A stretch of 64,000 bases of DNA from Magnetococcales bacterium. Its GTDB lineage: Bacteria; Pseudomonadota; Magnetococcia; Magnetococcales; JADFYX01. The translations under genes were made by a program, and so were the position numbers. Positions 11,152 through 21,784 of the stretch are shown one piece after another. The first letter of the stretch is position 1; each line of letters opens with the position of its first letter. The stretch is taken from assembly GCA_002753565.1 (NCBI GenBank), contig PEAM01000004.1:62001-126000 (forward strand). The letters are read 5' to 3'. The notes below the pieces were generated by a model. The model was given only the letters and a program-made list of their open reading frames with translations, was not told where the DNA came from and ran no database searches.

Positions 11152-12054
11152 ATGAGTACATTGAACGATGACGAACTGATTGATGAGTTAAAACAGCGGT
11201 TTGATGCCACCAAGCAGGCGCTTTACGATGTAAAAATGGTGACAAACAAGCTCGAAGAGGTCAATAAAAAGCTCCAGGCTTCTGAACAGGTCAAGAGTAA
11301 CTTTGTCTCCCACATGAAAAATGAGATCAACAACCCGTTGACCTCCATCCTGGGGTTGACCGTACAGATCAAGACCGGCAACCTGGATCAGGAGACCATC
11401 CAGTCGGTGGCCACCATGATCCATGGTGAGGCTTTCAGCCTGGATTTTCAACTGCGCAACATTTTTGCCGCCGCCGAACTGGAGTCGGGTGAGACCGAGA
11501 TTCAGGTCTCCCTGGTCGATGTCCACAACCTGATCAAAGATGCCGTAGATACCTTCCAACACCTCATCGACGAAAAGCAGCTCAAGGTGCTATTCACTCC
11601 TCAACCTGCCGATGGAGAAGGGTTGCGGATTAAAACCGACACCGAAAAACTCTCCCTGGTGGTCCATAATTTGCTTTCCAATGCCATTGAGTTCAACCGG
11701 GAAGGGGGGACCATAACCATCGATGCCAAAATGTTGGAGGGCCGGCTCTCCCTCTCCTTCACCGATACCGGTGCCGGCCTGGAGCCTGACCAACTACACA
11801 AAATTTTCGACCGCTTCTCCCAGCTGGAGGTCGGTTATCGAAAAAGCCATAAAGGTCACGGCCTGGGGTTGAGCATCACCCAGGCCATCGTCGACCTGAT
11901 GGAGGGCGAGGTGATTGTAGACTCCACCAAAGAGAGAGGCTCCACCTTTACCATCCTGCTCCCGGAGATGGTGGCTGATGTGGATGCCGATGCCTTTTCG
12001 GTAGATGGAAGCGACTTCTTTTTTGATGATGACTCCGGGGCTGAGGCATTCTAG
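11152..12054 (+). CDS. Cytosolic sensor histidine kinase
   Basis: The 300-residue kinase has an N-terminal coiled coil (about 1-45), a dimerisation/phosphoacceptor helix with H-box FVSHMKNEINNPLTSI (His54), and a HATPase domain with N-box VHNLLSNAIEFNREGG, G1 DTGAGL, F-box DRFSQLE and G2 GHGLGLSIT. There is no membrane segment and no PAS or other sensory domain, so the input is probably through a partner. The C-terminal tail is rich in Asp and Phe. It ends three bases before the cheD start, so the two are almost certainly co-transcribed, which points to a role around chemoreceptors. No response regulator gene adjoins it. Confidence 0.88.
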   Translation: MSTLNDDELIDELKQRFDATKQALYDVKMVTNKLEEVNKKLQASEQVKSNFVSHMKNEINNPLTSILGLTVQIKTGNLDQETIQSVATMIHGEAFSLDFQLRNIFAAAELESGETEIQVSLVDVHNLIKDAVDTFQHLIDEKQLKVLFTPQPADGEGLRIKTDTEKLSLVVHNLLSNAIEFNREGGTITIDAKMLEGRLSLSFTDTGAGLEPDQLHKIFDRFSQLEVGYRKSHKGHGLGLSITQAIVDLMEGEVIVDSTKERGSTFTILLPEMVADVDADAFSVDGSDFFFDDDSGAEAF

Positions 12055-12057
12055 GCG

Positions 12058-12528
12058 ATGCAAACTGGAAATGAAAACCGCCCCTTTCTTCTGCCCGGCG
12101 CCCTGTTTGCCAAAAACGGGGATTATGTCATCACCACCGTTTTAGGCTCCTGTATCGCTGTCTGTCTGTGGGATCAAGCCCTCAAAAGAGGTGGCATGAA
12201 CCACTACAAGCTCCCTCTCTGGAATGGAGACGGCCTCCCCTCGCCTAAGTTTGGCAATATTGCCATCGAAAAGCTCATTGAACAGATGTTGAGCTTTGGC
12301 TGCCAGAAGAGAAACATGAAGGCCAAGGTGTTTGGTGGGGCTGCGGTGATCAAAAGCGCCAGCGGTCTGCTCAATGTTGGCGAGCGTAACATTGAGGTTT
12401 GCAAAGATCTGCTGGCAAGAGAGCGGATTCCCATTGCTGCGTCTGACGTCGGAGGGGAGCAGAGTCGAAAAATTCTTTTCAATACTGCCGATGGGGCCAT
12501 CCTCATGAAAAAGGCCAAACCCCAATAG
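12058..12528 (+). CDS. cheD: Chemoreceptor glutamine deamidase CheD
   Basis: This 156-residue CheD deamidates specific glutamines on chemoreceptors and in many bacteria also controls CheC. The catalytic Cys lies in VLGSCIAVCLWD (Cys32) and the catalytic His in GGMNHYKLP (His49); VFGGAAV and NVGERN are further family motifs. The gene follows the kinase gene by three bases. No other che gene is in the window, so the CheD-kinase pair is detached from a standard chemotaxis operon. Confidence 0.95.
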   Translation: MQTGNENRPFLLPGALFAKNGDYVITTVLGSCIAVCLWDQALKRGGMNHYKLPLWNGDGLPSPKFGNIAIEKLIEQMLSFGCQKRNMKAKVFGGAAVIKSASGLLNVGERNIEVCKDLLARERIPIAASDVGGEQSRKILFNTADGAILMKKAKPQ

Positions 12529-12539
12529 ATCCCTTTTAT

Positions 12540-15092
12540 TCATGACTCTCGCTCCAGCAACACCGCCATTACCGGACGCCCCAACTCCCGGTAGGCTCCC
12601 GCCAGCCCGGTCATAACCACCAACCCAACCCCAGCCGTGACGGCTAAAAAGCTCCAGAGGGGCAACCCCTGCCACTGGTCATCCATGACCCCCACCACCA
12701 CCACCGCCGAAAGCAGATGGGAGACCAGAAGCCCGGCAACCGAAGCGATCAAGCCCATCAGGGCAAATTCGATCAACACCACCTGTAACATCTCTCCACG
12801 GGTGGCCCCCTGCAGCCGACAGACCGCTGACTCCTTGGCCCTCCGCCGTCGGGATGCCGCCACATGGACCGCCAAAACCAACAGCCCCGACACCACCGCC
12901 ACCCCACCCAGAATACGCACCACCTGAGCCAACTGCAGCAGCAGTTGAGAGATGGAGAGCATCACCTTGCGGGAGGCGATGGCAGAGATATTGGTAAACT
13001 GCTCGGTTACGGCTGAAAAGAGGGCCTCTTCTGCCTCGGGCGGGGTCGCCACCGTAGCCAGATAGGTGAGCGGGGCACCGGATAAGACCGCAGGAGAGAA
13101 AACCACAAAAAAGTTCAAGCCCATATCCCGCCATCGTACCGCACGCAGGTTGATAAGGGGGGCGGTGATGGGGATGCCCTGAATATCGAAGGTAACGGTA
13201 TCCCCCACTTTCACCCCCAGGCCACGGGCCAACTCTGACTCCATACTGATCCCCTGCAGGCCCGCCTCCAGCTCGTTCTCCTGCCACCATCTCCCCTCAA
13301 CCAGTTGATTACCCGGCGGCAAGGTGGCCGAGGCGGTCAGGACATACTCTCGGGTAAACATCCAACGGTGAGAATGGCCGTGGTTCGATGCCCCCTCCTC
13401 TTCCACCTTGTTCATCAGATGCTGGGTCATCTTCTGTCCGTTGAGAGCGGTCAGTCGTCCTCGAATAACCGGAGTAAGACGAACCGACTGATCCTCTGTG
13501 GCAAAGGGGGAGACAACCTTTTTAAAGGGTTCGACCTGATGGGGTTGAATATCGATGAAGAAAAAACTGGGCACCTTATCCGGCAGTCGGTTGAGAATCT
13601 GATTGTCCAGGTTGCGACTGAGAAAAAAGAGGGTAAAGACCAACCCCAATCCCAACCCTAAGGAGACCAACACCGTCCCTCCACCCGAGCGACAGAGTCC
13701 GGCCAGAGCCAGCTGTCCGGCCACCTGAGCAGGCTGGAGTCGTTTGAGCAGAGCCATGCTAAGAAGAGAAAAGGTCCAAACAATCAGGAGGCTTAACAAC
13801 AGCGCGCCCACAAACATCCAACCCAATCTCCCCTCACCCATCAAGCGGGCCACCCAAAGAGCCGGGATAAGCGTCACAGCAGCGACGGTCAGCCAGAGAG
13901 CTTTATCGGAAAAAGTGCCGCCCCCTTCCCGACGAGAAAAAAGCAGGGCCGGTGAGATCTTGCGGGTTTGAAGCAGGGGACCCAGAGAGAAAATCAAGGC
14001 AAAAAACAGCCCCGCTCCCACCCCCACCAACCCCAAAAGGGGCGATGGCGTATAGGTGAGGGATGGCGGAAACAGCCCCGCCAACAAGGAGAGCAGCCCC
14101 CAAGGGAGGATCAACCCCACCAGCGCCCCCAAAAAGGCGGCAGGCAGGGTGATGATCACGGTTTGCCACCCATACAGAGCCATGATACTGCCACTGTCGG
14201 CCCCCAGACATTTCAAGGTGGCAATTTTATCGCGATTTTCTTGAATATGAACCCCCATGGCCCCGCCCATGCCCAACCCCGAAAGCAGCAGGGTCAACAG
14301 GCCGGTCAACCCCAGAAAAACCCCAAAACGACGCATGAATCGACGTACCGACGATTGACTCTCCGAAGGGGTCAGCAGGCGAATACCGGCTGTTTGCGCC
14401 CTCTCCTTTAGCTGCTCTGCCACCCCTGCCAGAGCCTCTCCTTCAGCCAGATTAACCCAGGCAATCTGTTTAACCCGGCTCCCTTTCTGGATCAGTTGCG
14501 TACCGGCCACCTCGGGCAGACCAATCATGACCCGAGGACCCAACGAGAAAAAGCGGGTTACCTGATCGCTCTCCTTCTCCAGGGTGTCTCGAATAGTGAA
14601 GATTCCCTTGCCCAACAGCAGCTTGTCCCCCCGTTGCAGCCCCATACGCAGGAGGAGATTTTTTTCCACGACAATACCACCATCCGCCAGAGCCGCCGCC
14701 AGGGTGCCACCAAGGCTCAACGCGACCGTCCCCCGCAGGGGATAGTGAGCGGAGACCCCTCTTACCTCAACCAGCAGCGTCTCTTGGGTGTCTGGGGTTC
14801 GGGCCATGGCAGAAAACTCCACCCCCCGATCAATCCGACGACCGGGTGCCACAACCTGACTTTCGATAAATGCCTCGAAGGGGTAGGAGGCCTGTAGCCG
14901 GAGGTCGGCTCCCAACAGAGCACGAGCCTCAAGGTCGACCGTTTTTTGCAAAAAGGAGGCGGTGGCGACAACACCGGTTAAGGTGGCCACCACCAGAAAG
15001 AGGGCGCTGACAAAAAAGAGGATATTGGCCCGGTCGGCCCAAACCCCCTGCCAGGCCAGGCTCAGGGTAACCCGCCAGGGAAGAGAACTCAC
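12540..15092 (-). CDS. ybbP: FtsX-like ABC transporter permease, YbbP type
   Basis: The 850-residue permease has an N-terminal membrane helix (about 20-45), two FtsX modules and two periplasmic domains. Hydrophobic clusters near 260-440 and 720-845 correspond to the 4+4-helix YbbP architecture. The pattern LRRFGVFLGLTGLLTLLLSGLGMGGAM is typical. With the adjacent ATPase it forms a MacB-like mechanotransmission or export complex. E. coli ybbAP likewise lies divergent to tesA, and the same arrangement occurs here. The start overlaps the ATPase stop by four bases (ATGA). Confidence 0.9.
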   Translation of the reverse strand: MSSLPWRVTLSLAWQGVWADRANILFFVSALFLVVATLTGVVATASFLQKTVDLEARALLGADLRLQASYPFEAFIESQVVAPGRRIDRGVEFSAMARTPDTQETLLVEVRGVSAHYPLRGTVALSLGGTLAAALADGGIVVEKNLLLRMGLQRGDKLLLGKGIFTIRDTLEKESDQVTRFFSLGPRVMIGLPEVAGTQLIQKGSRVKQIAWVNLAEGEALAGVAEQLKERAQTAGIRLLTPSESQSSVRRFMRRFGVFLGLTGLLTLLLSGLGMGGAMGVHIQENRDKIATLKCLGADSGSIMALYGWQTVIITLPAAFLGALVGLILPWGLLSLLAGLFPPSLTYTPSPLLGLVGVGAGLFFALIFSLGPLLQTRKISPALLFSRREGGGTFSDKALWLTVAAVTLIPALWVARLMGEGRLGWMFVGALLLSLLIVWTFSLLSMALLKRLQPAQVAGQLALAGLCRSGGGTVLVSLGLGLGLVFTLFFLSRNLDNQILNRLPDKVPSFFFIDIQPHQVEPFKKVVSPFATEDQSVRLTPVIRGRLTALNGQKMTQHLMNKVEEEGASNHGHSHRWMFTREYVLTASATLPPGNQLVEGRWWQENELEAGLQGISMESELARGLGVKVGDTVTFDIQGIPITAPLINLRAVRWRDMGLNFFVVFSPAVLSGAPLTYLATVATPPEAEEALFSAVTEQFTNISAIASRKVMLSISQLLLQLAQVVRILGGVAVVSGLLVLAVHVAASRRRRAKESAVCRLQGATRGEMLQVVLIEFALMGLIASVAGLLVSHLLSAVVVVGVMDDQWQGLPLWSFLAVTAGVGLVVMTGLAGAYRELGRPVMAVLLERES

Positions 15093-15769
15093 CGATCTCC
15101 CCCCTCTATCTCCTGCACCACCCCCCCCTGGGAGAGGCGAAACTGGCGATCCATCCGACCCACCAGTTCATTGTCGTGGGTAACCAGAAAAAAGGTGGTC
15201 TTCCAGCGTTGCACCATATCGAACAGGAGATCCATAATCCGTTGACTGGTATCCTGATCCAGGTTACCCGTGGGTTCATCGGCCAAAATCAACCCCGGCC
15301 GGGTGACAAAAGCTCGAGCGATGGCAACCCGCTGTTTTTCTCCACCAGAAAGCTCGCGGGGTCGGTGGCTCAATCGGTGGGAAAGGCCGACCCGCTCCAG
15401 CATCTCTTCCGCCTGTTGGCTGGCGTTTTTGGTCCCGGCAAGGGTGAGGGGAAGGGCGACATTTTCCAGAGCGGTCAGGGTGGAGACCAGATGAAAATCT
15501 TGAAAAACAATGCCGATATTTCGCCGCCGAAAGCGGGCCAAATCATCAGCAGATCGCCCATTGAAATCGTAGCCATTGACCCGTACCATCCCCCCAGTAG
15601 CCGCCTCCACACCGGCAATCAAAGCCAGCAACGTGCTTTTGCCACTGCCAGAGGGGCCAACCAAGGAGACAACCTGACCGGCAGATACCTGGAGATTGAC
15701 CCCCTTGAGGATGGTCAACGTTTGGCTGTCATGGATCAGGGAGTATTCAACATCTTTTATCGTTATCAT
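15089..15769 (-). CDS. ybbA: ABC transporter ATP-binding protein, YbbA type
   Basis: The 226-residue ATPase carries Walker A (GPSGSGKST), the signature [14 protein letters not shown], Walker B ([12 protein letters not shown]) and the H-loop LVTHD. The DEPTGNLD string and gene context place it in the MacB/LolD/YbbA group. The start at 15769 (MITIKDVEY) is preferred to one nine bases upstream. It is divergent from the tesA-type gene with only 26 bases between the start codons, so the two promoters must overlap each other or the opposite coding sequence. Confidence 0.92.
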
Positions 15770-15795
15770 TGTCCACACAGTGAGAAACCAACCCC

Positions 15796-16467
15796 ATGAT
15801 TACCCCTACCTTACCACTCAGGCTGCTGACTCTTCTGCTCTCTTTTCTCTATTTTACCACGACCGTTTATGGAGGTGATGCCGTGATTCTCTGTTATGGC
15901 GATAGTCTAACCGCCGGGTTTGGGGTGGATGCCCAGGAGGCCTATCCGGCCCGTCTGCAAAAACGGCTGCAGGCAGAGGGGTTTCCCCATCGGGTGGTCA
16001 ACGCCGGTGTGTCGGGAGACACCACCGCTGGTGCGTTGAGTCGACTCGGTTGGGCCATGCGCGCCAAACCAACCCTGGCCATTGTCACCCTGGGAGCCAA
16101 TGACGGTCTTCGAGGCCAGAGCATAACCGCCATGGAGGAGAACCTGGAGCAGATCATTCTACGTCTGCAAAAAGCCGGTGTACAGATTCTCTTGGGGGGC
16201 ATGAAAATTCCTCCCAACTATGGCAAAGAGTATACCACCGCTTTTGCAGAGGTCTACCCACGTCTGGCCAAAAAACATCATCTCCCCCTCCTGCCTTTTT
16301 TTCTGGCCGGGGTAGCTGGAGAACCGGCTTACACCCTGGAGGATGGCATCCACCCCAACGCCCAAGGCTATGGGCTGATTCTGGAGACGGTCTGGCGGGG
16401 GGTTCTTCCTCTGCTCAACAGGGAGGCTGCCCCCTCTTTTTTGGAAGATCAACATGAAAAACCGTGA
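15796..16467 (+). CDS. tesA: Periplasmic SGNH esterase, TesA-like
   Basis: The 223-residue protein has a signal peptide (hydrophobic 5-26) and the SGNH hydrolase blocks: block I YGDSLTAGFGV with the nucleophile Ser, the oxyanion Gly in VSGDTTAGAL, block III GANDGL and block V DGIHPNAQGY with the catalytic Asp and His. This is the TesA/arylesterase family (thioesterase I, protease I, lysophospholipase L1), active on acyl esters in the periplasm. Divergence from ybbAP matches the E. coli arrangement and supports the name. Confidence 0.92.
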   Translation: MITPTLPLRLLTLLLSFLYFTTTVYGGDAVILCYGDSLTAGFGVDAQEAYPARLQKRLQAEGFPHRVVNAGVSGDTTAGALSRLGWAMRAKPTLAIVTLGANDGLRGQSITAMEENLEQIILRLQKAGVQILLGGMKIPPNYGKEYTTAFAEVYPRLAKKHHLPLLPFFLAGVAGEPAYTLEDGIHPNAQGYGLILETVWRGVLPLLNREAAPSFLEDQHEKP

Positions 16468-16557: not shown

Positions 16558-19305
16558 ATGACCATTTTTTCTACTATTAGAAGCCGATTTTTTACGCACC
16601 GATCCCTAAGCCGCAAGGTTCTAACCACCTCTGGCCTCATCGGTGCCTTCTGCCTGCTGGTTCTGGGTCTCTACCTCACCAACGCTTTGCGGGCGGAGTT
16701 GATCCGGCAGAACGATGAACAGATTAACAATCTGGCCCACAGTGTGCGCCACGGTCTGCACGCCATCATGCTCACCGGCAACGCCAACATTGCCCAAAAA
16801 TATGCTCAACATCTCAAAAAAACCGAAGGGGTAACCAACCTTCAAATTTTAAGAACAGACGGATCAGAAGCCTTCCAGAAGAACCGCCGGCAAAGCCCGC
16901 TTCTCTCGGGCCAACTTCAGACCCACTTTCGCCAAGCGGTTAAAGAGAAAACAAGCGTCTCCTTTGTCAAGATGGACGAGACCCTCAACCGAGAGAAGAA
17001 TTTTTTTATCCCCATCCCCTTCGAGGAGGGGTGTCAGCAGTGTCACACCGGCACCATCGGCGATGTTCGAGGTGTACTGGAGATTACCGTCTCCCTGGCT
17101 GCCATCGACAGCCAGGTCAAAGAGATCATGAAGGATTCCCTGCTGATCATCCTCATCTCTCTGTGCTTTTTTGTTCTAATCTTGGGCCTTGCCCTGCACC
17201 AGATCTTGACCAGCCCCCTGGAAGCCCTTACCGCCTCATTTCAACAGGTGGCCAGGGGGAAGCTGACCGATGTGGTGGTTGATCTAAAAAGAAAGGATGA
17301 GATTGGTCTGATTGGTCATGTTCTTGATCAACTGACATCCGGGCTTGAGGAGAGAATTCGTAAAATCAACCTGCAGTCCGGCAACATGGTCGCCTTTATC
17401 AAGGAGATCATCAAACTCCGTAACGCCATTGGTGAAAACACTCAGATTCTTTCCGAAACATCGAGCAACGTCACCACCGAAAACAGCACCCTGGGTCAGG
17501 AGATCAGCAAAATAAAAAGCCGCATCGACTTGGCTGCCAATAATGTCGTCAATATTTCCCAAGGGACAGAGGTAGTCTCTAAAAATACCGCCGAAATCTC
17601 CGAATCCCTCCTTCAAACCAACCGCAGCGTCAACGAGATGACCAAGCTGGTGGAGCAGATGGAGCAGAACCTGGGAACCGTCTGGAAAACCCTGGAAGAT
17701 AGCAACAAAGATACCGCCCAGCTAGCCACCTCTATCAACAAAATGACCAGCTCCCTGGGTGCGGTTCGGGAAAAATGCCAACGGGCATCACAAGACTCCC
17801 AGCACGGCACGAAGCTCTCTCTTGAAACCCTGGATCTGACCCAAAAACTGACCGAGGCCTCTCGAGAGATCGATCAGGTCACCACCCTCATCATGAATGT
17901 GGCAGAAGAGACCCATATGCTGGGCCTCAACGCTTTAATCGAAGCCGCCAGCGCCGGGGAGGCCGGCAAAGGGTTTGCCGTGGTCGCCAACGAGATCAAA
18001 GATCTGTCCCAGCGAACCCTGCTCGCCACCGAGAAGATCAGTACCGTTCTCCAGCGTATTCAAGACCATGCCCACGAGGTGAGCGTTTCGGTTCAAAAGA
18101 TCTCCAAAACCATCAACACCCTGGACCAGACCAACCAGTGGATCCACACCTCGGTAGAGAGCCAAGACCAGGCCATCCAAGACATCTCTCAAGCCACCAA
18201 AGAGCTGACCACCACCAACCTCTCTGTGACGGAGAGCACGGAGGTTCTAGAAAATGCCGCTACGGCCATCTCTCAAGCGGTGGTGGCTGTACGAGACCAG
18301 ACAGAGTCCATGAGCCTGGGCGCAAAAAAAGCCGCCGACTCCGCCGAGCAGATCGACCAGCAGAGCCGAGAGTCCCGAGATTTTTTGTTGTCCATCCACA
18401 ACTCCATCGAAAAAACCGACGCCTCATCCCAGCGGGTTCAGGAGAAGATGGCTATGACCAATCGGGTGGTCCATCAGGTGCAAAGCTCCGTCCACCACCT
18501 CCAAGGGCTCTCCGAAGTCGCCGCCTATCTGAGCGACGCCCTGCTATCGTCCAACACCAATATGGACATCGGCCCGGAACCCTTCGATATTCGCCAGCTC
18601 AAAGAGCCTCTGCTGGCTTTTTTGGGATCATTGGAAGAGGTGGTCTCGGGGGTTTCCAATCAGGATAGAGCATCCATTCAGACAAGCTGCCTGCTCTGTG
18701 GCTGGATTGAGGAGAAGCGGTCGACCTATGGTTCATTCTACCTGTTTGAAAAGCTGATCACCTCCCATGCGCAGCTTCACAAAACGGCGGATGAAATCTT
18801 TGACCTGACCGAGCAGGGATTGATCGACCCAGAGGCCCGTTCTGCCCTTCGGTTTTTCCGAGAGGTCCGGCGGACCCTCTTTGATCATCTCAACCACCTC
18901 TATCTGGGCCAAGAGCCACTCCAGCGTGGGCAACCTCTCATCCAGTGGCAGGCCTCCTACCAGTGTGGCCACCTAAAAAGTGACCAGGAGCATCAGCAGT
19001 TGGTCACAATGGCCAACGATCTTTTTTCTGGCACAGAAGAGGGCAGCATGCGCCACGCTCTGATACAGTTCTTGGATGTTGCCAGGCAACATTTTACCCA
19101 AGAGGAGCACTATTTACAGAGCGAAGGCAGCCCGGAGTTGGCGTGGCATACAGAGCAGAACAGACATTTTATCAACCATATGGAACAGGCACTCTTTCTC
19201 CACGAACGGGAGGATTTCCAGATTTCTCTGGATCTCTTTCTCTTTTTGCGAGAGTGGCTGCTTAAACATATGACCGGACAGGAAGAGAGCCCGTCAGCCC
19301 CCTAA
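16558..19305 (+). CDS. Chemoreceptor with haem-c motif, CZB-like domain and hemerythrin domain
   Basis: The 915-residue receptor has a first membrane helix (about 20-42), a periplasmic sensor ending in a CxxCH haem-c motif (Cys159, Cys162, His163), a second membrane helix (about 188-212), HAMP (about 213-265), and a methyl-accepting helical hairpin whose tip is near 450-480 (LNALIEAASAGEAGKGFAVVA). A CZB-like zinc domain follows at about 690-770 (CLLCGWIEEK..YG, then HAQLH), though the usual first His in an HxxWK motif is missing. The C-terminus (about 800-905) is a hemerythrin domain with DQEH, FTQEEH, H..QNRHF and REWLLKHM. It should signal to CheA in response to redox state or oxygen, and perhaps zinc or oxidants. 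The stop overlaps that of the convergent membrane gene. Confidence 0.88.
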   Translation: MTIFSTIRSRFFTHRSLSRKVLTTSGLIGAFCLLVLGLYLTNALRAELIRQNDEQINNLAHSVRHGLHAIMLTGNANIAQKYAQHLKKTEGVTNLQILRTDGSEAFQKNRRQSPLLSGQLQTHFRQAVKEKTSVSFVKMDETLNREKNFFIPIPFEEGCQQCHTGTIGDVRGVLEITVSLAAIDSQVKEIMKDSLLIILISLCFFVLILGLALHQILTSPLEALTASFQQVARGKLTDVVVDLKRKDEIGLIGHVLDQLTSGLEERIRKINLQSGNMVAFIKEIIKLRNAIGENTQILSETSSNVTTENSTLGQEISKIKSRIDLAANNVVNISQGTEVVSKNTAEISESLLQTNRSVNEMTKLVEQMEQNLGTVWKTLEDSNKDTAQLATSINKMTSSLGAVREKCQRASQDSQHGTKLSLETLDLTQKLTEASREIDQVTTLIMNVAEETHMLGLNALIEAASAGEAGKGFAVVANEIKDLSQRTLLATEKISTVLQRIQDHAHEVSVSVQKISKTINTLDQTNQWIHTSVESQDQAIQDISQATKELTTTNLSVTESTEVLENAATAISQAVVAVRDQTESMSLGAKKAADSAEQIDQQSRESRDFLLSIHNSIEKTDASSQRVQEKMAMTNRVVHQVQSSVHHLQGLSEVAAYLSDALLSSNTNMDIGPEPFDIRQLKEPLLAFLGSLEEVVSGVSNQDRASIQTSCLLCGWIEEKRSTYGSFYLFEKLITSHAQLHKTADEIFDLTEQGLIDPEARSALRFFREVRRTLFDHLNHLYLGQEPLQRGQPLIQWQASYQCGHLKSDQEHQQLVTMANDLFSGTEEGSMRHALIQFLDVARQHFTQEEHYLQSEGSPELAWHTEQNRHFINHMEQALFLHEREDFQISLDLFLFLREWLLKHMTGQEESPSAP

Positions 19306-19808
19306 ACCCTCTCATCCATCAGGGGGAGAGATGGCTTGGCAGACACCTCTTGTGCATAGCAGTCAAAAGGCTCGGCCAGTTCATCCTCCTGCCTTTGAGC
19401 CAGATAGCGCAAAAAGATCGTAATCCCCACCCCCACCTGGAGCACCACCAGAGCGATCAGAAAAAAGGCCCACTTATACTCGCCGGCCTGAATCGCCCCA
19501 ACAGCATTGGCCCGCAACAGGGGTGAGAAGAGCAGAACATTGAGGATATTGATAAGGATGGCGCCGAGGGAGAGGCCGATATAGTTGACCCGAACAAAAA
19601 AGAGCATCACACCACTGATCAGGGTCAGGTAGCCGCCAAAAAGGGGTATGAAGAGATAAAGAAGGGAGGCAAAAAAGGCAAAAAAAGCCCCACCGCCCCC
19701 TTTTCCCAGTCGATGAAGAGGAATAAAAATCATCAGGCTCAGCAGCACCATACCCAAGGCGAGAGGGATGGCATTGACTATCAAAAACTGGAGAATCGTA
19801 CTACTCAT
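19302..19808 (-). CDS. Four-helix integral membrane protein of unknown function
   Basis: The 168-residue protein has four predicted membrane helices (about 5-30, 40-68, 75-100 and 113-135) and a polar C-terminal tail of about 30 residues. A GGGGAFFAFFASLLYLFIPLFGGY stretch forms the second helix region. I recognise no family. A GGGAG-TAGGG purine run precedes the ATG, so translation is plausible. It is convergent with the large chemoreceptor (stops overlap by four bases) and has about 250 bases of non-coding DNA upstream, consistent with its own promoter. Confidence 0.7.
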   Translation of the reverse strand: MSSTILQFLIVNAIPLALGMVLLSLMIFIPLHRLGKGGGGAFFAFFASLLYLFIPLFGGYLTLISGVMLFFVRVNYIGLSLGAILINILNVLLFSPLLRANAVGAIQAGEYKWAFFLIALVVLQVGVGITIFLRYLAQRQEDELAEPFDCYAQEVSAKPSLPLMDERV

Positions 19809-20056: not shown

Positions 20057-21784
20057 ATGATGGCAAAAGACTCCCAGACACAGCAGCCCCATAAAGATGA
20101 TTTTCATCAGCTTGTTGAGGGCCACCCCGAAGGAATCGTCCTCCATCGAGAAGGAAAGATTCTCTACGCCAACGGCCAGGCCCATCTGATTTTTGGTGTC
20201 GACCGGGAAAAAGGGGTTCAGGGCACACCTCTGACCACCTTTTTTCCACCCGACTCCTGGCAACGTATCGAGCAGTCCATCGAGAGTGACAGCTCCGAGG
20301 CCGCCTATAGTGGCTGGCCCGCGGAAATGACCTGTATCCGCTTTGATGAGAAAGAGCTCCATCTAGAGACCATCACCACCAAGATCAACTTAACCTCAGG
20401 CCCAGCCCTATCCACTGTTTTTAAAGATATCTCTCAACGAAAACAGTCGGAGAAACGCATCCGTCATCAAGCCAACTACGACCACCTGACCGGCCTGCCC
20501 AACCGCACCCTTTTTCGGGATCGACTAACCCAGGAGTTAATCCGGGCCACACGACAAAACAGTCGGGTTGCCCTGATGTTTATCGATCTGGACCGTTTTA
20601 AATGGGTCAACGATACCTTGGGACACGGCGCCGGAGATCAACTGTTGAAGGAGGTTTCTCAGCGGCTTCAGGAGTCTCTGCGCAAATCTGATACCGTTGC
20701 TCGAATCGGAGGAGATGAGTTTACCGCCATTCTACCAGACATGGCCCGTGGCCCCCACGCCGAACGGGTGGCCGGCTCCGTCCTGACAGCCCTGGCCACC
20801 CCTTTCATCCTCGAAGGTCAGGAGGCCTTTATCTCTGGCTCGGTGGGCATTACGGTGTTCCCGGATGATGCCGAAGATATGGAAGCGCTGCTTAAAAATG
20901 CCGATATTGCCATGTATCGGGCCAAAAATGAGGGGCGTAACGCCTTTCGTTTCTACACCCCGGATATGCACGATGAGGCTCAGGAGCGGATGGCTCTGGA
21001 AAAAGATCTCCACCGGGCTTTGGAACGCCAGGAGTTGGTCATCCACTACCAACCCATCATCAACCTGCAAACCAAAACAGTGGTGGGGGCCGAAAGTTTT
21101 TTACGCTGGGAACACCCGACCCGAGGCTCCATTCCTCCCACTACCTTTATTCCCCTGGCTGAAGAGATCGGCCTGATCAGCGATATTACCGAGTGGACCA
21201 TCCGCACCGCCTGCAGCCAGGCCCAAGGGTGGCGAGAGCAAAAAAAGGTGGTTACCGACTTTATGATCTCGGTCAACCTCTCCTGCACCCGCTGTCGCGA
21301 CCTCTCCACCGATGAACGCATTAGCCAGATTTTACGAGAGTCCGGCCTGCCCCCCTCGGCTTTGGTGTTGGAGATTACCGAAAATATCCTCTCTGAGGAT
21401 GAAAACCGGGCCATGTCCATGTTGCGCCATCTGGTTAAGTTGGGGGTCAACCTCTGGTTGGACGACTTTGGTACCGGCTACTCCTCTCTGAGCGTTCTTA
21501 AAAAGCTACCGGTCAACGGCATCAAAATAGACCGGGCCTTTGTGCCGGATGTAACCAAAGATCCAGAGACCACCGTCCTGGTTGAGGCCATCATGTCTCT
21601 GGCCAAAAGCCTCAAACGTCGCGTTATTGGTGAGGGGGTTGAGCGGGAGGATCAGGCTGAATTTTTGCTGCATCATGGCTGTCTATGGGGCCAGGGCTTT
21701 CTCTACAGCAGGGCGGTAACCCACCAAGAATTTGAAGTTTTTTTACAAACAGACAGAGTGAACCGGCAACAGGAAGAGGGCTAA
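20057..21784 (+). CDS. PAS-GGDEF-EAL cyclic-di-GMP turnover protein
   Basis: The 575-residue protein has a PAS domain (about 12-130), a GGDEF domain (about 140-305) with an intact GGDEF signature near residue 218, and an EAL domain (about 325-570). The EAL signature reads AESFLRW, so the catalytic Glu346 is kept although the motif is not canonical. Other EAL residues are present (LEITENIL, LDDFGTGYSSL, KIDRAFV, GEGVE). It could both make and degrade c-di-GMP; which activity dominates cannot be read from sequence. There is no membrane segment, so PAS probably senses a cytosolic signal. Its end overlaps the convergent response regulator by four bases. Confidence 0.92.
   Translation: MMAKDSQTQQPHKDDFHQLVEGHPEGIVLHREGKILYANGQAHLIFGVDREKGVQGTPLTTFFPPDSWQRIEQSIESDSSEAAYSGWPAEMTCIRFDEKELHLETITTKINLTSGPALSTVFKDISQRKQSEKRIRHQANYDHLTGLPNRTLFRDRLTQELIRATRQNSRVALMFIDLDRFKWVNDTLGHGAGDQLLKEVSQRLQESLRKSDTVARIGGDEFTAILPDMARGPHAERVAGSVLTALATPFILEGQEAFISGSVGITVFPDDAEDMEALLKNADIAMYRAKNEGRNAFRFYTPDMHDEAQERMALEKDLHRALERQELVIHYQPIINLQTKTVVGAESFLRWEHPTRGSIPPTTFIPLAEEIGLISDITEWTIRTACSQAQGWREQKKVVTDFMISVNLSCTRCRDLSTDERISQILRESGLPPSALVLEITENILSEDENRAMSMLRHLVKLGVNLWLDDFGTGYSSLSVLKKLPVNGIKIDRAFVPDVTKDPETTVLVEAIMSLAKSLKRRVIGEGVEREDQAEFLLHHGCLWGQGFLYSRAVTHQEFEVFLQTDRVNRQQEEG

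Follow-up and report, generated by a model that had tools for sequence, protein, structure and literature searches.

A putative redox-taxis chemoreceptor family of Magnetococcales combining a periplasmic c-haem sensor with CZB-like and hemerythrin domains

Magnetotactic bacteria carry many chemoreceptor genes (PMC12442639), and one such gene from a Magnetococcales bacterium, a member of the order of magnetotactic cocci, raises the question of what a single receptor may read when three candidate sensor domains are strung along one chain. The gene lies in the 64,000-nucleotide stretch of DNA that was analysed here, referred to as the window (contig PEAM01000004.1, positions 62,001 to 126,000 of the forward strand). 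An initial annotation had placed a periplasmic CxxCH motif, a CZB-like domain and a hemerythrin (Hr) domain around a methyl-accepting chemotaxis protein (MCP) hairpin, and this layout is borne out by Pfam, NCBIfam and hydropathy, which give the order transmembrane stretch, periplasmic c-haem sensor, transmembrane stretch, HAMP, MCP hairpin, CZB-like domain and C-terminal Hr domain (Table 1). An MCPsignal hairpin and a HAMP domain, both above their cut-offs, together with two hydrophobic stretches identify the product as a methyl-accepting chemotaxis protein. Profile matches to CZB and Hr are likewise present, as had been supposed, and both fall below their Pfam cut-offs (for Hr, PF01814 gives 18.6 bits against 25.3), with the Hr domain lying above the cut-off of the NCBIfam model hemeryth_dom, TIGR02481. 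Standard annotation would miss the layout, since the CZB domain goes undetected by Pfam in several family members. We consider it probable that the window protein is a transmembrane redox-taxis chemoreceptor, one of an orthologous family that has so far been seen only in Magnetococcales and that was made by domain shuffling.

Table 1. Features of the receptor gene and its neighbours, with positions counted from the first letter of the window.
Feature	Positions	Strand	Residues and evidence
ABC-type ATPase	15089-15778	-	upstream; counterparts beside orthologues in L052 and L297
TesA-like hydrolase	15796-16467	+	upstream; counterparts beside orthologues in L052 and L297
Whole receptor gene	16558-19305	+	ATG start, 915 aa, no internal stop; domains by Pfam and NCBIfam
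First transmembrane stretch	16615-16695	+	residues about 20-46; hydropathy
Periplasmic c-haem sensor domain PF21563 (Mcp40H-20_sensor)	16744-17097	+	residues 63-180; 27.3 bits, cut-off 27
Met71, predicted second axial haem ligand	16768-16770	+	invariant in 21 relatives; aligned with Met60 of GSU0935
CQQCH, predicted haem c attachment motif	17032-17046	+	residues 159-163; CxxCH invariant in 21 relatives
Second transmembrane stretch	17119-17193	+	residues about 188-212; hydropathy
HAMP domain	17197-17349	+	residues 214-264; PF00672 34.6 bits, cut-off 25, E 2.4e-8
MCP signalling hairpin, best Pfam stretch	17773-18246	+	residues 406-563; PF00015 96.1 bits, cut-off 34.6, E 2.8e-27
CZB-like four-helix domain	18592-18903	+	residues about 679-782; PF13682 19.4 bits, cut-off 29.4; profile match to DgcZ 3t9o; AF2 helices
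Leu685 at first Zn-ligand His position	18610-18612	+	Leu/Ile/Val in 8/8 family members, His in canonical paralogues
Cys711-Leu-Leu-Cys714	18688-18699	+	conserved Zn-ligand Cys and extra Cys replacing Gly; CxxC in 8/8 family members
His737-x-x-x-His741, retained Zn-ligand histidines	18766-18780	+	present in 8/8 family members
Hemerythrin (Hr) domain	18943-19284	+	residues 796-909; TIGR02481 63.2 bits, cut-off 51.75; Foldseek to DcrH-Hr 2avk
Asn868 replacing conserved Hr ligand His	19159-19161	+	codon AAC; sole case among 125 compared Hr domains
Glu909 replacing conserved Hr ligand Asp	19282-19284	+	codon GAG; sole case among 125 compared Hr domains
Short unnamed membrane ORF	19302-19808	-	downstream; counterparts in L052 and L297, 31-36% identity
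PAS-GGDEF-EAL protein	20057-21784	+	downstream; counterparts in L052 and L297, GGDEF-EAL 63-64% identity

In a search of relatives, six homologues (L014-L019, 32-35% identity) were recovered at full length, all with the N-terminal sensor of the window protein. The contig-end pieces L043 and L044 were counted as parts of a single seventh gene, and G047 contains another N-terminal fragment, L046. The combination of three domains, which the initial annotation had thought unfamiliar, is indeed rare, with the layout present in eight of 48 Magnetococcales genomes (plus the one fragment); it is not a one-off, as seven genomes other than that of the window hold orthologues. Across the same 48 genomes a C-terminal profile separates the family, at 418 bits or more, from the rest, at 290 bits or less, and L014 scores below this gap because its Hr domain has decayed. 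Orthology is supported by the neighbours common to the window, L052 and L297: the counterparts of the ATPase and the TesA-like hydrolase are 53-61% identical, a range that becomes 53-64% when the GGDEF-EAL gene is included. The restriction of the family to Magnetococcales is provisional, because other phyla were reached only through a search of an 84,980-species collection with narrow query patterns, in which the closest named matches are Magnetococcales MAGs. In a 398-genome sample of the phylum, none of the matches listed from outside Magnetococcales carried the two-domain CZB-Hr tandem, and the strongest matches outside the order, checked in 20 genomes, covered the Hr part alone. Hr fusions in Magnetococcales are not new, because several Hr chimeras had already been counted in Magnetococcus MC-1 (PMC2556348), and MCP-CZB-Hr receptors are common in the order. 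In open-licence papers, no description was found of CZB with Hr, or of haem c with both. The family is small, apparently undescribed and assembled from known parts; its most interesting feature is the change in its CZB ligands.

The N-terminal sensor passes the curated Pfam cut-off only marginally, and a profile of 21 related N-terminal domains matches two Geobacter c-haem sensors, PDB 3b47 (E 3e-11) and 3b42 (E 1.2e-8). Both CxxCH and Met71 are invariant across the 21 domains. The motif stands between the two hydrophobic stretches, and by composition alone 0.002 occurrences would be expected per protein of this make-up. Genes for cytochrome c assembly (PF01578) and CheW are present in the host genome. 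By homology, covalent haem attachment and ligation by Met71 are predicted; in GSU0935 the corresponding Met60 is a ligand of the reduced haem and is let go upon oxidation (PMC8396549). The sensor family has been described as a haem-bearing Cache domain, sCache_heme, of which one member shows slow NO dissociation, like known NO sensors (preprint, PMC12889525). The Geobacter chemoreceptors GSU0582 and GSU0935 (3b47, 3b42) share the sensor fold, CxxCH, the Met position, HAMP and MCP output with the window protein, but no report was found of either having a CZB or Hr domain. The cytosolic CLLC (residues 711-714) was also considered as a haem c site and was ruled out, there being no His after the motif. 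Next to the three-sensor gene, L052:3550-5106 (- strand) encodes another c-haem chemoreceptor, of about 520 aa and simpler in layout, with a haem sensor, HAMP and MCP but neither CZB nor Hr; similar genes lie beside the orthologues in G024 and G032, and none is found at that place in the window.

At the other end of the protein, an AF2 model of the C-terminal 276 aa adopts the four-helix Hr fold and matches DcrH-Hr (2avk) with a Foldseek probability of 1.00 and a TM score of 0.78. Five of the seven ligands H-H-E-H-H-H-D are kept; the other two are replaced by Asn868 and Glu909, at what we take to be diiron ligand positions of hemerythrins. Among 125 Hr-bearing receptors the ligand strings are HHEHHHD (103), HHEQHHD (20), HQEHHHD (one) and HHEHNHE (the window protein only). 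Every Hr ligand is gone in the sister protein L014, and the full seven-ligand site is present in six orthologues (L015-L019, L044). DcrH of Desulfovibrio vulgaris, an Hr-MCP, is likewise a membrane MCP with HAMP and a C-terminal Hr domain, the structure of which matches the window model; its description includes neither a CZB domain nor a c-haem sensor, and its diiron site binds O2, whereas two ligands are changed in the window protein (PMC9388753).

The initial annotation had suggested that the Hr domain could read cytosolic oxygen, and had overlooked the two ligand changes as well as the extra Cys714 discussed below. For the family, with its six full sites, such O2 sensing is plausible; for the window protein it is doubtful, because Asn stands for His and Glu for Asp, and because L014 is without all of the ligands. 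The window domain, with these residues, is probably impaired, or else serves a structural role alone. The alternative of a receptor with all three inputs working, in which the altered domain still binds O2 via a modified diiron centre, would accord with the retained fold and five ligands, the NCBIfam score, the match of the model to DcrH-Hr and the intact sites of the six orthologues. However, the pairing of H868N with D909E is unique among the 125 domains, and the sister protein has no Hr ligand left, so that the site appears to be decaying in this lineage; we regard this explanation as improbable. It might also be asked whether the two changes are sequencing or assembly errors, in which case the window protein would be no less intact than its orthologues. 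A single base separates each variant codon from the usual one, and the genome is a 92-contig draft with no second copy for comparison, but two separate errors falling exactly at ligand codons without a frameshift would be unlikely, and Hr decay is also seen in the sister lineage L014; we give this explanation almost no credence.

How the three domains came together was addressed with a tree of the HAMP-MCP-CZB region of 67 proteins, a quick tree under a simple model in which L013 and L014 have rather long branches. The seven family members included cluster together (SH-aLRT 95). Their group is nested inside the MCP-CZB-Hr receptors (SH-aLRT 99), and the haem-MCP-CZB receptors of Magnetococcales branch separately (100). 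A topology in which the family is constrained to group with the haem-MCP-CZB receptors fails the AU test (p-AU 1.5e-4). Given this result and the nesting, it would seem that domain shuffling placed the haem sensor on a pre-existing MCP-CZB-Hr receptor; the opposite route, addition of Hr to a haem-MCP-CZB receptor, is ruled out by the same test. A tree of the haem domain only does not recover the family as one group, and the haem module may have been acquired more than once. The MCP-CZB-Hr receptors (e.g. L020, L021, L023, L047), the nearest clade by sequence, have HAMP, MCP, CZB and Hr as in the window protein; unlike it, they have no CxxCH sensor, and their CZB ligands range from canonical to absent. 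The haem-MCP-CZB receptors (L022, L024, L025, L028-L032, L034, L037, L051) share the haem sensor and the domain order up to CZB, but form a separate clade without Hr, and all of those compared carry the canonical ligand string HCGHH.

The CZB-like domain requires closer attention. A profile of 68 related CZB domains, that of the window protein included, matches the CZB domain of E. coli DgcZ (PDB 3t9o, E 1.1e-9), and the ligand positions of the two line up. The homology is therefore real though the standard Pfam model misses it. A helical bundle is predicted for the region by AF2 (pLDDT 89); when a CZB-only model was compared by Foldseek, the best 50 matches listed held generic helical bundles and no CZB entry. 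A survey of CZB domains found the 3His/1Cys zinc core to be ubiquitous and position 4 of the motif CX(L/F)GXW(Y/L) to be almost universally Gly, which was explained by a clash of any C-beta at that position with the residue just before the Cys (PMC8262984). Because the survey (PMC8262984) searched only for domains with the 3His/1Cys core, it could have missed variants. In the window protein, Cys711, His737 and His741 of the core are retained and Leu685 takes the place of the first His; the motif reads CLLCGWI, with Cys and Trp retained and Cys at position 4. The absence of the first His had been recognised in the initial annotation, which suggested a changed ligand, and this suggestion gains support from the invariance of the change in the family. 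In all eight members that have the CZB region the first His is Leu, Ile or Val, a second Cys follows three residues after the zinc Cys in place of the near-universal Gly, and the HxxxH pair is retained. Compared with canonical relatives, these members lack about two residues of the loop that leads into the zinc Cys.

The new Cys of the family thus adjoins the old zinc Cys. In AF2 models Cys711 caps the following helix and Cys714 lies in its first turn, a predicted placement in which the CxxC could bind metal or form a disulfide. The fixed change fits a 2Cys-2His site or a dithiol switch replacing 3His-1Cys, with Cys711, Cys714, His737 and His741 as candidate metal ligands. Absence of the first His is associated with Cys or Asp at motif position 4 (11 of 13 against 6 of 55, Fisher p 5e-7), in counts that are not independent; because this His was lost only about twice on the tree, the association is not usable as proof, and the loss of the His and gain of the Cys reflect very few evolutionary events. 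CxxC also occurs with the first His kept (HCCHH, five candidate ligands) in L174, L175, L177, L201, L222 and L224, at three or more separate places among the MCP-CZB-Hr receptors, and the Gly-to-Cys change is therefore tolerated elsewhere in the order. In three related MCP-CZB-Hr receptors (L021, L049, L050) the first CZB His is absent and Asp occupies motif position 4 (CPVD), a possible alternative replacement ligand.

The domain may instead be a metal-free structural linker, as it seemingly is in many Hr-bearing receptors of the order, with a stabilising or residual CxxC and the haem sensor alone live in the window protein. Two observations could count in this way against our explanation: CZB Cys or His ligands are missing from the majority of the 125 Hr-bearing receptors, and the Pfam CZB match is below cut-off in the window and absent in L016-L018. 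Against a linker, Cys711, Cys714, His737 and His741 are invariant across family members that are only about 32% identical in the CZB region. Furthermore, L014 keeps the CxxC pair despite the loss of its Hr ligands and with only five Cys in all (the haem pair, the CZB pair and one other), which argues for selection on the pair. We hold the linker to be unlikely, while taking it more seriously than an error in the sequence, and continue to favour a sensory CZB variant.

Canonical CZB proteins suggest what such a variant might do. The zinc ligands of TlpD are His315 on alpha5, Cys340 on alpha6, and His368 and His372 on alpha8, and a lost His315-Zn bond marks the zinc-disrupted state, with changes reaching the kinase tip (PMC12871147). 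As the equivalent of His315 is gone, the family lacks the residue linking zinc to the helix that extends the MCP hairpin. A C-terminal CZB domain on an MCP hairpin is also found in H. pylori TlpD and Salmonella McpA (PMC12871147, PMC13370339), and the zinc Cys and HxxxH are common to these two, E. coli DgcZ (PMC8262984) and the window protein; the latter differs from all three in its missing first His, in Cys for Gly at position 4, in the Hr domain after CZB and in being membrane-bound with a haem sensor. The sensing mechanism of CZB domains is debated, with direct Cys oxidation or zinc availability as the alternatives, and a natural family that lacks the first His, whose zinc bond is linked to the conformational switch of TlpD, and has a second Cys is a ready-made test of this debate. 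Tentatively, and with slightly more doubt than confidence, we suggest that these domains form a novel type of CZB sensor: a second Cys would stand in for the helix-borne His, and the resulting CxxC/HxxxH (2Cys-2His) zinc-dithiol switch could form a disulfide on oxidation and would be coupled, within one receptor, to a periplasmic haem redox sensor. If this is true, one kinase-controlling hairpin reads the redox state on both sides of the membrane.

In the mechanism that we propose, the periplasmic haem c, held by His163 of CQQCH with Met71 on the opposite face, would change coordination with periplasmic redox state or NO, and the signal would pass through the second transmembrane stretch and HAMP to the MCP hairpin. 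The CZB variant would act on the same hairpin by metal occupancy or thiol oxidation at its four conserved Cys and His residues, and in the six orthologues an intact diiron Hr domain would add an O2 input. In the window protein it is probably haem c and CZB that still act as sensors, and it is reasonable to suppose that this one receptor compares periplasmic with cytosolic state. The direction of the signal is inferred, as is the idea that the receptor helps the cell to keep its place within a redox gradient. In most of the 125 Hr-bearing receptors (Magnetococcales loci L020-L246) the CZB zinc ligands are lost to varying degrees and the Hr ligands are nearly always intact. Together with the loss of Hr ligands in one haem-sensor branch, this CZB ligand loss represents sensor turnover on one receptor scaffold.

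Some smaller features of the locus may be recorded. Cys407 of the window protein (17776-17778) lies in the MCP hairpin, and a similarly placed Cys occurs in full-length family members (405-479, own numbering). At the hairpin tip, IEAASAGEAGKG (window about 17936-17971), Ser is found where well-known MCPs carry Arg, and Gly in other family members; in those well-known MCPs the Arg lies at a receptor trimer contact. About 4 kb upstream of the receptor, a protein resembling a histidine kinase fragment (HATPase_c, weak HisKA; 11152-12054, + strand) is immediately followed by CheD (12058-12528, + strand).
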